Under the pieces are notes generated by a model. The model searched no databases. It was given only the letters and a program-made list of their open reading frames with translations, and was not told the DNA's origin. A program made the position numbers and the translations under genes. From Kushneria indalinina DSM 14324 (GTDB lineage Bacteria; Pseudomonadota; Gammaproteobacteria; Pseudomonadales; Halomonadaceae), in assembly GCF_003385845.1 (NCBI RefSeq), contig NZ_QRDJ01000009.1:62001-126000 (forward strand): DNA of 64,000 nt. Direction: 5' to 3'. Shown here one piece after another: positions 59,984 to 63,584 of the stretch; within the stretch, counting starts at the first letter, position 1; the number at the start of each line of letters is the position of its first letter.

Positions 59984-60838
59984 ATGAATAAACTGTTGAG
60001 CGCGGTCACTTTGAGCACGCTGATCGTACTGACCGGGTGTTCCGATGCTGACGACAGTCAGGACAACAACGCTGATGATCAGGCCACACAGCAGGAGCAG
60101 ACCCAGCAAAACGGCAATGACGCAAGCGCCCAGCAGCAGGACGACTTCGAGTCCGATCAGGCACGTCTGGCCTATGCCGTGGGTGTGACGTTGGCCCGCA
60201 ACCTTCATGAAGACATGGAGGATCTGGATGTTGATAACTTCACCAGTGGCATCAAGGATGTCTACGACGGCGACGACATTCGCCTGAGCGATCAGCAGAT
60301 CGGCGATGCCCTGCAGCAGTATCAGCAGCAGATGATTGCCGAACAGCAGCAGCAGATGCAGCAGCAGGCCGAGGAAAACGCCCAGGCCGGCCAGCAGTTC
60401 CTTGAAGAGAATGCCGGCAAGGACGGCGTGGAAACCACTGACTCGGGCCTTCAGTACCGCGTCATGGAATCCGGTGACGACAGCGGTGCACAGCCCGGCG
60501 ATGAAGACCAGGTTCGCGTCAATTATGAAGGCCGCACCATCGACGGTGAGGTGTTTGACAGCTCCTATGAGCGTGGCGAGCCGGTCACCTTCCAGACCAA
60601 CCAGGTCATTCCCGGCTGGCAGGAAGCGCTGAAGATGATGCACCCGGGCGATCAGTGGGAAATCTATGTGCCTTCCGATCTGGCCTACGGCGAAGCAGGC
60701 ACCGGCCCGATCGAGCCGAACCAGACCCTGATCTTCAAGGTGGAACTGCTTGACGTGGGCGATGACGCCACCAGCGCTGCAGGCGACGACGCCGGTACCG
60801 CTCAGCCCGGCGCCGCCGAGACGCAGTCAGCCAATTAA
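59984..60838 (+). CDS. FKBP-type peptidyl-prolyl isomerase lipoprotein (FkpA/Mip-like)
   Basis: 284 residues. Signal peptide with lipobox LTGC (Cys about 19), a Gln/Asp-rich linker (about 25-60), an N-terminal dimerisation-type helical domain (AYAVGVTLARNLHED and following, with a Gln-rich helix QQQQMQQQAEE), and the FKBP domain (about 160-255: VRVNYEGRTIDGEVFDSSYERG, VIPGWQEALKMM, DLAYGEAGTGPIEPNQTLIFKVELLDV). Folding catalyst in the periplasm. A Gly/Ala/Asp-rich tail follows. AAGGAG precedes the ATG. Confidence 0.92.
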   Translation: MNKLLSAVTLSTLIVLTGCSDADDSQDNNADDQATQQEQTQQNGNDASAQQQDDFESDQARLAYAVGVTLARNLHEDMEDLDVDNFTSGIKDVYDGDDIRLSDQQIGDALQQYQQQMIAEQQQQMQQQAEENAQAGQQFLEENAGKDGVETTDSGLQYRVMESGDDSGAQPGDEDQVRVNYEGRTIDGEVFDSSYERGEPVTFQTNQVIPGWQEALKMMHPGDQWEIYVPSDLAYGEAGTGPIEPNQTLIFKVELLDVGDDATSAAGDDAGTAQPGAAETQSAN

Positions 60839-60862
60839 AGCTGAAATGCAGTGTGAGGTACC

Positions 60863-60895
60863 AGCCACCGGGCCTGATCGCCCGGTGGCTTTTTT
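60863..60895 (+). terminator. Intrinsic terminator of the FKBP gene
   Basis: Perfect 11-bp stem, AGCCACCGGGC (60863-60873) and GCCCGGTGGCT (60880-60890), 6-nt loop, then TTTTT. Very strong terminator. Confidence 0.92.
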
Positions 60896-61236
60896 ATGCC
60901 CGGCCCCGGCGGTTTGATGCCTGACGCCGTGTAATGGGCGGTGGATAAACCCGGCCAAAATACCCTGTGGATAAGGTTGTGAGGTACTGTTTTATGACCG
61001 GCTTACGACCTGTGTATAAATGTCGCACACCCCTGCTGCGCTGATGGCAAATGCGGCAAAGAAAAAAGCTGTAAAAACCATAACGCTCTGTTTACTCTCA
61101 TTATTTAGAGAAACACGGTCAGATGACGGCCAAAATCCCGCATTGAGGCGCTTTACTTTCTGTCAAGCAAAAATTCCCAACGCCGTGTGGATAATTAATA
61201 GGAAAATTCATGTTTCAGCCGCCGTGACATTGTGCA
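60896..61236. other. AT-rich gene-free stretch with four DnaA boxes
   Basis: No credible ORF. Four copies of a DnaA-box-like 9-mer lie in the same orientation: GGTGGATAA (60940-60948, one mismatch), TGTGGATAA (60966-60974, exact), TGTGTATAA (61011-61019, fits TGTGNATAA) and TGTGGATAA (61186-61194, exact). Between the third and fourth is an AT-rich stretch with A-runs and T-rich segments. Almost no GATC. The arrangement could be a DnaA-titration locus, a replication-control site, or an origin. Confidence 0.6.
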
Positions 61237-61731
61237 TCAGCGACACGGCAGCGACAGATCGTACCAGCTGCCCAGAAGCCCCCGGGAAGTTGCCACCACA
61301 AGACTGCCGCGCACACGCTGCGTCTCGCTACCGCACGCGGGAAAATCAAACGTGCCGTAATAGTGACCGGGCGCCGCGGACGCCAGTGTTATGGTTGTAT
61401 GACGCGGGTGACTGCCGGTTTCCTCAAGCTGCGCTTTAACCTGCTCGGCCTCCAGACCATCCAGCACCATATCCACGCTCAGCTGTCCTTCCCGGTAATG
61501 CCACTGCGCCTGCATCTCGCCGAAGCGGCCCAGCGCCGTAAAGCAGCGCTCACTCAGCGGTCGGCACTCAAGCTCGGGGGCAAACCAGGTGGCCTGCGAT
61601 CGATTGCCGGCACCGACGTAGTAATAACCCAGATAGGCGATGGCCACGGTGACCGTAATCAGCGTGACGATGACCAGCGTGTTGAGCCAGCGCAGCGAGG
61701 GGATTTGAGAAGACGACACGGGTCTCGACAT
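61237..61731 (-). CDS. Hypothetical single-pass membrane protein, possibly iron-regulated
   Basis: 164 residues from the ATG at 61729-61731. One membrane helix near the N-terminus (LNTLVIVTLITVTVAIAYLGYYYVG, about 16-40), then a soluble domain with four cysteines (ELECRPLSERCF, PACGSE, LSLPCR). A TTG start at 61788 would add 19 residues. I do not recognise a family. The Fur-like inverted repeat at 61815-61847 lies about 85 bases upstream of the ATG. Confidence 0.7.
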   Translation of the reverse strand: MSRPVSSSQIPSLRWLNTLVIVTLITVTVAIAYLGYYYVGAGNRSQATWFAPELECRPLSERCFTALGRFGEMQAQWHYREGQLSVDMVLDGLEAEQVKAQLEETGSHPRHTTITLASAAPGHYYGTFDFPACGSETQRVRGSLVVATSRGLLGSWYDLSLPCR

Positions 61732-61814
61732 GAAAAAGCGTCCGGTGATCAGGCAGGCATTGCGCAGAGGATAGACAGGCGTGGTCAATAACAGCAGACA
61801 TTCATTTAAAAAAT

Positions 61815-61854
61815 ATTCTCATTTGTCTTGACTGGCCAAATGAGAATGGTTATC
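61815..61854. promoter_or_regulatory. Fur-box-like operator and divergent promoters
   Basis: ATTCTCATTTG (61815-61825) and CAAATGAGAAT (61837-61847) are a perfect 11-bp inverted repeat with an 11-bp spacer. CCAAATGAGAATGGTTATC (61836-61854) matches the 19-bp Fur consensus at about 13 positions. On the + strand TTGACT (61828-61833), 17 bases, TATCTT (61851-61856) forms a sigma70-like promoter. On the minus strand TTGGCC (61839-61834), 18 bases, TATTTT (61815-61810) faces the hypothetical membrane-protein gene. The operator overlaps both promoters, the layout expected for Fur repression. Confidence 0.65.
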
Positions 61855-61860
61855 TTTGAG

Positions 61861-61973
61861 ATGTGGTGATCGCCAGTCACCACATGAACAACCCGATATG
61901 TCAGGTATCGAGTGGTTCATCTCCTCATCAAGCTAGTCACGGTCCTTGAGCCGCCCGATTGGGCGGCTTTTTT
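61861..61973 (+). ncRNA. Candidate Fur-regulated small RNA (RyhB/PrrF-like layout)
   Basis: The predicted transcript starts near 61861, just after the -10 TATCTT. A 5' stem-loop, ATGTGGTGA/TCACCACAT (61861-61869 and 61877-61885, loop 7 nt), is followed by about 60 unpaired-looking bases. It ends in a strong terminator, stem AGCCGCCC/GGGCGGCT (61949-61956 and 61961-61968), then TTTTT. Size about 113 nt. The unpaired part includes TTCATCTCCTC, complementary to GAGGAGATGAA, a Shine-Dalgarno followed by AUG. No coding gene sits on this strand. The only ATG frame (21 codons from 61884) has no ribosome-binding site. Likely an iron-stress sRNA, not proven. Confidence 0.65.
61949..61973 (+). terminator. 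Intrinsic terminator of the candidate sRNA
   Basis: AGCCGCCC (61949-61956), loop GATT, GGGCGGCT (61961-61968), then TTTTT. The T-tract is on the + strand only. On the minus strand, where trmB ends at 62012, it would not work as a terminator. Confidence 0.9.
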
Positions 61974-62011
61974 ACGTCGGTCACATGACCCCGACATTGA
62001 TATCCGCCGGT

Positions 62012-62737
62012 TCAGGCCCGGTCAGTGCGCTGATAGATCAGATCCCACACGCCATGCCCCAGCCGCTCACCGCGGGTTTCAAACTTGGTGAGCGGCCGAA
62101 AGTCCGGACGCGGGACGTAATCACCGTCCTGTGCCAGCGTTTTAAACCCGGCCACCTCGTTCATGGTCTCGACCATGTATTCGGCATACGGCTGCCAGTC
62201 GGTGGCCATGTGGAAACGACCGTTCGGCTTGAGAACGCGATGCACACGATCGATAAAGGCCGGCTGCACGATCCGGCGCTTGTGATGACGCTTTTTGGGC
62301 CAGGGATCGGGAAAGAAGAGCTGCAGCGTATCGATCGATTCGGCGGGCAGACAGTCATCGAGCACCTTCAGCGCGTCCTCGCGATAGACGCGAACGTTGG
62401 ACAGGCCCGCCTTGTCGACGTCATCAAGCAGCTTGCCCACGCCCGGCGGATGTACCTCGATACCGATGAAGTCGGCCTCCGGATTGGCCATGGCCTGCTC
62501 GAACAGCGAGCCGCCCATGCCAAAGCCGATCTCGACCACGCATGGCGCCCGGCGCCCGAACAGTGCTTCCAGGTCCAGATGGCCCTGCTCGAGCGTCAGG
62601 CCCAGCCGGGGAAAGACCTCTTCCAGGCCGCGGCGCTGGGCCAGGGTCATGCGTCCGCTGCGTACCACATAACTCTTGATGCCGCGGTGCGGCGTCTCTT
62701 CACCGGCTTCAGGGCCCGGCGTTGCTTCTTCTGTCAT
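62012..62737 (-). CDS. trmB: tRNA (guanine-N7-)-methyltransferase
   Basis: 241 residues from the ATG at 62735-62737, close to the E. coli length. SAM-binding VVEIGFGMGGSLFEQA, IGIEVHPPGVGKLL, and the TrmB signature FPDPWPKKRHHKRRIV. Methylates G46 in tRNA variable loops. A TTG reading at 62752 adds five residues and has no clear ribosome-binding site. Minus strand, just downstream of thiG. Confidence 0.95.
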   Translation of the reverse strand: MTEEATPGPEAGEETPHRGIKSYVVRSGRMTLAQRRGLEEVFPRLGLTLEQGHLDLEALFGRRAPCVVEIGFGMGGSLFEQAMANPEADFIGIEVHPPGVGKLLDDVDKAGLSNVRVYREDALKVLDDCLPAESIDTLQLFFPDPWPKKRHHKRRIVQPAFIDRVHRVLKPNGRFHMATDWQPYAEYMVETMNEVAGFKTLAQDGDYVPRPDFRPLTKFETRGERLGHGVWDLIYQRTDRA

Positions 62738-62780
62738 CACAAGTATCGTCAAAAACGGTGGAACGGGTCATGACCCGGGG

Positions 62781-63584
62781 TCAGCCGGTAATCAGGCCTT
62801 CACTGGGCGATGAGGGGCTGGCGGCATAGGTCTTTCTGCCCATGCGCTCGGCCAGGCGGGCTTCACGCCCGGCTTCGACGGCCTTTTTCATGGCGCTGGC
62901 CATCAGCACCGGCTGACGCGCGTGGGCGATGGCCGAATTGATCAGCACACCATCACAGCCCAGCTCCATGGCCATGGCCGCGTCAGAAGGCGTGCCGATA
63001 CCGGCATCGACCAGAATCGGCACACGGGCATTGTCGACGATCAGCGACAGCGCATGCGGATTGAGCAGGCCGTGGCCGGAGCCGATCAGCGAGCCCAGCG
63101 GCATGACCGCACAGCAGCCCATCGACTCAAGCTCGGCCGCCACAATCGGGTCGTCACTGGTATACACCATGACATCAAAGCCGTCCTCGATCAGCGTGCG
63201 TGCCGCGCTGAGGGTCTCCATCACGTTGGGATAGAGCGTATGGTCGTTGCCCAGCACTTCCAGCTTGACCAGGTTGTGGCCATCCAGCAGCTCGCGGGCG
63301 AGCTGGCAGGTGCGTACCGCATCTCGCGCGTTATAGCAGCCGGCCGTATTGGGCAGGATGGTATAGCGCTCGGGATTAATGACATCGAGCAGATTGGGCT
63401 CGTCCGGATTCTGCCCGATGTTGGAGCGACGCACGGCAACCGTGACGATCTCGGCGCCACTGGCCGCAACCGCCGCGCCGGTTTCTTCAAGGTCACGATA
63501 CTTGCCGGTCCCGACCAGCAGGCGCGAGGTAAAGGTTCGCCCGGCAATGGTCAGGGGGCTGTCCCACTGGGAATCAGTGCTCAT
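62781..63584 (-). CDS. thiG: Thiazole synthase
   Basis: 267 residues from the ATG at 63582-63584, which has a near-perfect GAGGAG 7 bases upstream. Longer readings overlap thi[50 protein letters not shown], and [14 protein letters not shown] (Schiff-base Lys in VKLEVLG). Builds the thiazole phosphate of thiamin from DXP, dehydroglycine and ThiS thiocarboxylate. Confidence 0.97.

Follow-up and report, generated by a model that had tools for sequence, protein, structure and literature searches.

The element at positions 61814-61973 of the window, by which the whole analysed stretch of 64,000 nucleotides from Kushneria indalinina DSM 14324 is meant, most likely encodes a Halomonadaceae homologue of the small RNA PrrF. 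Taken as a whole, a Fur-controlled, iron-sparing sRNA of this type is the best explanation of the evidence, with a probability of about 0.92. A Fur-controlled iron-stress sRNA with the layout of RyhB and PrrF had already been proposed in the initial annotation, and this prediction from sequence is backed by a match to the Rfam family RF00444 (PrrF), by conservation within the family and by Fur-like boxes upstream. The further suggestion that the RNA might be new for its lineage stands in part: the gathering score of RF00444 was reached in 0 of 201 Halomonadaceae genomes, and the open-licence literature covered yielded no native PrrF from Halomonas, Halomonadaceae or Kushneria. It is no new kind of RNA; the kinship with PrrF is ordinary in kind and useful in scope, and concerns a branch that lies under the Rfam threshold.

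The placement of the element between a membrane protein gene and trmB agrees with the initial annotation; both genes are on the minus strand, the latter being recognised by PF02390. The features are as follows.

61237-61788, minus strand: gene for a small membrane protein, divergently oriented to the sRNA (open reading frame; its 164-aa form, 61237-61731, has no Pfam match)
61808-61825, plus strand: A-tract and TTCTCATTTG, just 5' of the -35
61828-61856, plus strand: sigma70-like promoter TTGACT-N17-TATCTT (promoter scan; TTGAC upstream in 20/20 promoter-independent loci)
61836-61860, plus strand: pair of Fur-box-like 19-mers that overlap at an offset of 6 bp and lie across spacer and -10
61861-61885, plus strand: 5' stem-loop with perfect 9-bp stem and loop TCGCCAG (sequence and fold; covariation in the aligned helix)
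61863-61974, plus strand: predicted sRNA, length about 112 nt (5' end placed from the position of the -10; RF00444 and R1 matches; fold)
About 61884-61919, plus strand: second stem-loop with loop TGTCA and conserved GTCAGG at 61900-61905 (fold)
61920-61947, plus strand: unpaired stretch with the targeting core TCTCCTCATCAAGCTAGTCACGGTC (61920-61944) and its flank (conservation; aligns to the PrrF consensus core)
61948-61974, plus strand: intrinsic terminator and T-run (terminator scan; covariation)
62012-62752, minus strand: trmB, convergent with the sRNA (PF02390, E 2.9e-57)

The sole plus-strand open reading frame of at least 60 aa that overlaps the element (61946-62773) is a mechanical one, antisense to trmB. 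Among 71 loci examined (about 2-4 kb each), trmB was found in 28, and a trmB-adjacent copy is present in 10/10 Kushneria genomes. In Kushneria genome G082, a full-core PrrF copy was also seen between two genes of the same strand that, judged by their translations, are probably trpE and trpG; the non-trmB copy of G103 resembles it.

Family Membership and RNA Structure

Homology decides the identity of the element; the promoter, Fur and terminator signals are singly at chance level. The RF00444 covariance model aligned to window positions 61828-61977 over its full length (model 1-150 of 150) with 66.1 bits, at E-values of 2.3e-10 in a 2.5-kb search (60500-63000) and 3.3e-11 in a further alignment run. 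A search of the whole genome gave 8.3e-11 for the element and no other RF00444 match. This significant alignment spans the promoter, the 5' stem, the core and the terminator, and its score lies below the gathering score of 90 bits. No match to RyhB or NrrF appeared for 60500-63000 among the Rfam results up to E 5.

The perfect 9-bp stem-loop described initially at the 5' end is present: ATGTGGTGA (61861-61869) pairs with TCACCACAT (61877-61885), and the energy fold, which began at 61862, displayed 8 of these 9 pairs. The stretch from this stem to the terminator had been described as unpaired, which is right for the core and wrong for the segment before it, where the second stem-loop forms; the GTCAGG of the latter occurs in 40 of 53 family copies. 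The T-ended terminator likewise exists, as a hairpin at 61948-61969 followed by the T-run, with one terminator found in 61000-63000 vs 1.8 expected by chance. The element has the conserved unpaired core and Rho-independent terminator by which a PrrF is recognised. The 25-mer core is exact in 40/53 copies and differs from the PrrF consensus core at two positions, where A replaces G and G replaces A, respectively. Its segment GCTAGTCACGGTC is invariant within the alignment described below, yet present in 45/53 over all copies, GCTAATCACGGTC being found instead in six.

None of 200 shuffles folds as well as the predicted RNA (z -4.67), and the minus strand likewise outdoes its shuffles (z -5.35). 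Because folding is strong on both strands, assignment to the plus strand relies on the promoter, the T-run and the model match. An alignment of the predicted transcript only, named A1, was made from 36 of the 53 family copies, 17 near-duplicate or long divergent copies being omitted. In A1, 92.7% of cells are paired vs 83.5% in shuffles, and 61 cells are changed on both sides vs 15.7 (0/500 shuffles as high; slid controls far lower), for a structure close to A1's own consensus, which favours the outcome of the test. Two-sided changes affect 6/8 pairs of the 5' helix and 4/7 of the terminator, together 10/15 pairs. A second covariance model, R1, was built from A1 with the promoter excluded; it finds the present copy, which was part of its input, at G000:C4:123863-123976 (G000 being the genome of the window), by position 61863-61976 of the window.

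Promoter Region and Fur-Like Boxes

The promoter reported initially on the plus strand is in place, with the -35 TTGACT at 61828-61833, a spacer of 17 nt and the -10 TATCTT at 61851-61856. The Fur-box-like 19-mer reported over its spacer and -10 proved to be two, at 61836-61854 and 61842-61860, each matching 13 of 19 positions of a Fur consensus. At the sequence level, the element has the Fur-box promoter of a PrrF. Promoter-like sites in 61000-63000 number one vs 0.8 expected by chance; a Fur score of at least 13/19 is reached at eight places in the window, two of which reach 14, both away from the element. The Fur box of this copy, taken alone, is unremarkable.

The promoter is part of the RF00444 model by which the A1 copies had been found; Fur-like boxes were therefore tested separately on 20 loci matched by R1 in genomes without an RF00444 match, all from genera g11 and g20 and from the listed stronger matches. 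A box of at least 11/19 lies upstream of 20/20 of these loci vs 37/520 control windows, and one of at least 12/19 upstream of 18/20 vs 8/520, the loci being related and not 20 independent events. Relative to the R1 model start, the box begins at -27 or -28 in 19 loci and at -22 in one. By eye, the Fur-like box of G016, G017, G082 and G103 seems to lie 5' of the -35 and not over the -10.

Just 5' of the -35, AAATGAGAAT, known from the main Fur-like box, recurs in the reverse complement of the A-tract/TTCTCATTTG element, and this element is possibly a second Fur half-site or an UP element. ATATTCTC occurs upstream in 19/30 copies of one set and in 22/53 family copies overall, and a similar A-tract/TTCTC element is also found 5' of the second Kushneria paralogue discussed below.

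Distribution in Halomonadaceae and Related Families

RF00444 matched 134/201 family genomes at E<=1e-3 vs 0/14 control genomes, and R1 matched 196/201, genomes of one genus not being independent in these counts. The covariance search and the survey of relatives that the initial annotation had recommended as a check were thus both positive. R1 gave no match in G018 and in four genomes of genus g3 (G002, G065, G076, G094), of which G065 and G094 do match RF00444. In the order, 47/293 genomes match RF00444, and 12/293 pass the gathering score, all in family f21, presumably Pseudomonadaceae. PrrF-type iron control would thereby not be confined to Pseudomonas and would reach almost every Halomonadaceae genome sampled, and the Rfam cut-off leaves out a large branch of PrrF. 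The family includes industrial chassis strains, and the P. aeruginosa PrrF1 scaffold is imported as a tool in Halomonas engineering (PMC13101641, PMC12164125, PMC13414033); the chassis species in which that scaffold is used probably has a PrrF-like RNA of its own.

The 25-nt core is absent from all 20 R1-only loci of g11 and g20, and its 3' half GCTAGTCACGGTC is kept in 19/20. In these loci, the 5' half was seen to be altered (TCTCCCTCTCATT or similar) with GCTAGTCACGG mostly kept, and the 5' hairpin includes TTGATGAG, a potential pairing partner of CUCAU in the same RNA. Among the matches listed, close pairs of copies (within about 400 nt) occur in at least 14/201 Halomonadaceae genomes, and at least one more genome (G022) has three copies. 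In another family of the order, five PrrF copies stand in tandem, about 280-300 nt apart (G449:C3:1547549-1548839).

Predicted Targets and Proposed Mechanism

The own genome holds the core complement GATGAGGAG 35 times and the reversed pattern 11 times; of the 35 sites, two are on the opposite strands of the two PrrF genes and one belongs to the candidate sponge described below. Some start codon lies within 40 nt at 13 of 30 sites inspected. Three of these 13 were recognised as iron enzymes, namely a large catalase (identified from the full gene, its 70-aa piece being below the Pfam cut-off), a molybdopterin Fe4S4 protein (22.3 bits vs a Pfam cut-off of 22.7) and aconitase (by coordinates), and two further genes had no Pfam match. 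The names acnA, katE-type and leuC used here are presumed from N-terminal sequences and family matches.

A core complement of at least 9 nt is present at the acnA start in 7/10 Kushneria genomes (absent in G015, G082 and G103) and at the large-catalase start in 5/8 loci (absent in G036, G082 and G103; the catalase fragment loci L289-L291 of G103 were left out). At the leuC start, a complement of at least 8 nt to the 3' half of the core is present in 7/10 Kushneria genomes. As background, 68 mechanically picked open reading frame starts of the window include one with at least 9 nt and two with at least 8 nt. Other catalases have a complement of more than 7 nt in 1/13 loci. By duplex energy, the sites in G000 (acnA -27.9, catalase and leuC -27.2) are not set apart from the background, the best of the 68 starts being at -28.4. 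SOD genes are a classical target of PrrF and RyhB. Contiguous core complement at SOD starts is at most 6 nt in 20/20 loci, by which SOD genes were ruled out as targets. Given the complements at the acnA, catalase and leuC starts of most Kushneria genomes, the core probably pairs over the ribosome site of iron-enzyme mRNAs; control of sodB by this RNA is not supported.

The observed promoter with its box, the structure, the core, the family-wide presence and the complementarity to gene starts are compatible with the following scheme. When iron is plentiful, Fe-Fur would occupy the overlapping boxes across the spacer and the -10 and block the promoter. As iron falls, the sRNA of about 112 nt would be made, and its unpaired core UCUCCUCAUCAAGCUAGUCACGGUC, probably together with Hfq, would pair at the ribosome-binding regions of mRNAs that encode iron enzymes the cell can do without: AcnA, the large catalase, LeuC and perhaps the molybdopterin Fe4S4 enzyme. 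Repression of these targets would spare iron.

Comparison with Known sRNAs and Alternative Explanations

RyhB, NrrF and ArrF are Fur-repressed, iron-sparing RNAs. They are named as PrrF-like in one report (PMC2851614), which also gives lengths of 116 and 114 nt for PrrF1 and PrrF2, close to the 112 nt or so of the element, and restricts the tandem prrF arrangement to P. aeruginosa among the pseudomonads compared. The element resembles PrrF1 and PrrF2 in its full-length alignment, its Fur-type promoter and the presence of aconitase among the predicted targets; it differs from them in scoring under the curated cut-off, in the two core positions and in the lack of complementarity to SOD starts. 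Unlike PrrF1/PrrF2 of Pseudomonas, the Kushneria genome holds one RF00444 match and one half-core paralogue.

Promoter-, Fur- and terminator-like sequences could also stand together between two genes by chance, with no sRNA there, as the chance-level frequency of each signal taken singly would allow. The full-length covariance match, the retention of GCTAGTCACGGTC in most copies, the covariation and the presence of the RNA in almost every family genome speak against such a coincidence, and conservation already makes it very unlikely. An iron-responsive sRNA akin to RyhB or NrrF instead of PrrF would have the same layout and Fur-type control; it is scarcely credible here, given that RF00444 alone scores well and that neither of those families was matched at the element up to E 5. 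A PrrF descendant that has changed in control or function, through another signal or regulator or with catalase and LeuC as main targets instead of general iron sparing, would accord with the SOD starts that lack a complement and with the seemingly displaced box of the four genomes named above. It is improbable, if less so than the other two, as a Fur-like box precedes all 20 independently found loci, and acnA, leuC, a catalase and the molybdopterin Fe4S4 enzyme are all iron proteins. A Fur-controlled PrrF homologue is accordingly preferred.

A Paralogue and a Candidate Anti-PrrF Sponge in Kushneria

R1 detected a second copy in the own genome (G000:C1:902215-902322, E 1.4e-7), which is absent from the RF00444 matches of the Rfam scan. 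It is a half-core paralogue that keeps GTATGTCAGGTGCC and TCTCCTCATCATCAGG and is without CTAGTCACGG. In 5/8 genomes, the acnA complement extends over 12 nt to this paralogue vs 10 nt to the main RNA. On the same strand, at about C1 902033-902123, lies a terminator-ended element whose end is about 90 nt 5' of the model start of the paralogue. This candidate sponge of about 95 nt folds strongly (94 nt, z -5.39), matches no Rfam family at E<=1 and stands beside the paralogue in 8/10 Kushneria genomes, G082 and G103 being without it. No sigma70-like promoter passed the scan there, and the candidate might therefore form the 3' portion of a longer RNA.

The element includes a block, ACTGCTTGATGAGGAGCAGT, whose first 19 nt, ACTGCTTGATGAGGAGCAG, are identical in 8/8 genomes and all 20 of whose positions, with the final T, are identical in seven. 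Within this block, 13 nt are exactly complementary to the PrrF core. The block forms a hairpin, in which a U-G pair closes the loop GATGAG at minimum energy. It is kept in G090 as well, where most of the remaining element is changed. The case for a sponge rests on the exact-complement shuffle test, in which, among 20,000 dinucleotide shuffles of the element, one (G000) or ten (G090) were as good against PrrF1. The loop of a second hairpin carries CCUGAC, the complement of GUCAGG, the other conserved motif of PrrF; in G090 the 7-nt loop is exactly CCTGACA, complementary to TGTCAGG of PrrF, and the other seven genomes have CCTGACT. This motif is only suggestive, because CCTGAC is frequent in shuffles (11% for G000, 3.5% for G090). 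The whole-RNA duplex energies between sponge and PrrF1 (z -1.2 to -3.4 in the eight genomes; 1 to 33 of 300 shuffles as good) are weak evidence against a strong interaction, and they were set aside because they are dominated by long, loose pairing and hardly beat shuffles.

It is tentatively proposed, at somewhat less than even odds, that Kushneria evolved a dedicated anti-PrrF sponge, which would titrate the two PrrF RNAs and fix either the threshold or the end point of iron sparing, with the paralogue serving only targets of the 5' half of the core. Alternatively, the element would be an sRNA in its own right that only has the sequence in common, or the remnant of an inverted PrrF copy. The sponge candidate is a more novel lead than the PrrF homologue itself and, if true, would offer a compact example, open to testing, of an sRNA that evolves alongside its antagonist. 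Two reviews describe SkatA, derived from the katA 3' end, as a sponge of PrrF1 in P. aeruginosa (PMC8395346, PMC9438474), and among the titles listed on PrrF and RyhB sponges none concerned Halomonadaceae. Like SkatA, the Kushneria candidate would pair with PrrF and titrate it; unlike SkatA, it is a separate terminator-ended element 5' of a paralogue and displays its complements in hairpins.

The 14-mer GCTTGATGAGGAGC occurs once in G000, beside the paralogue, and at 42 places in 33/201 family genomes, 29 of them outside Kushneria. Several of the latter sites are in frames reading LDEE, including G030 and G045 with an identical hairpin sequence; 20 of the 29 were inspected, for a downstream start codon only, and no sponge is inferred there. 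In all GTDB contigs, the 18-mer CTGCTTGATGAGGAGCAG was found in 43, of which five are from Kushneria and 38 are scattered over many taxa.
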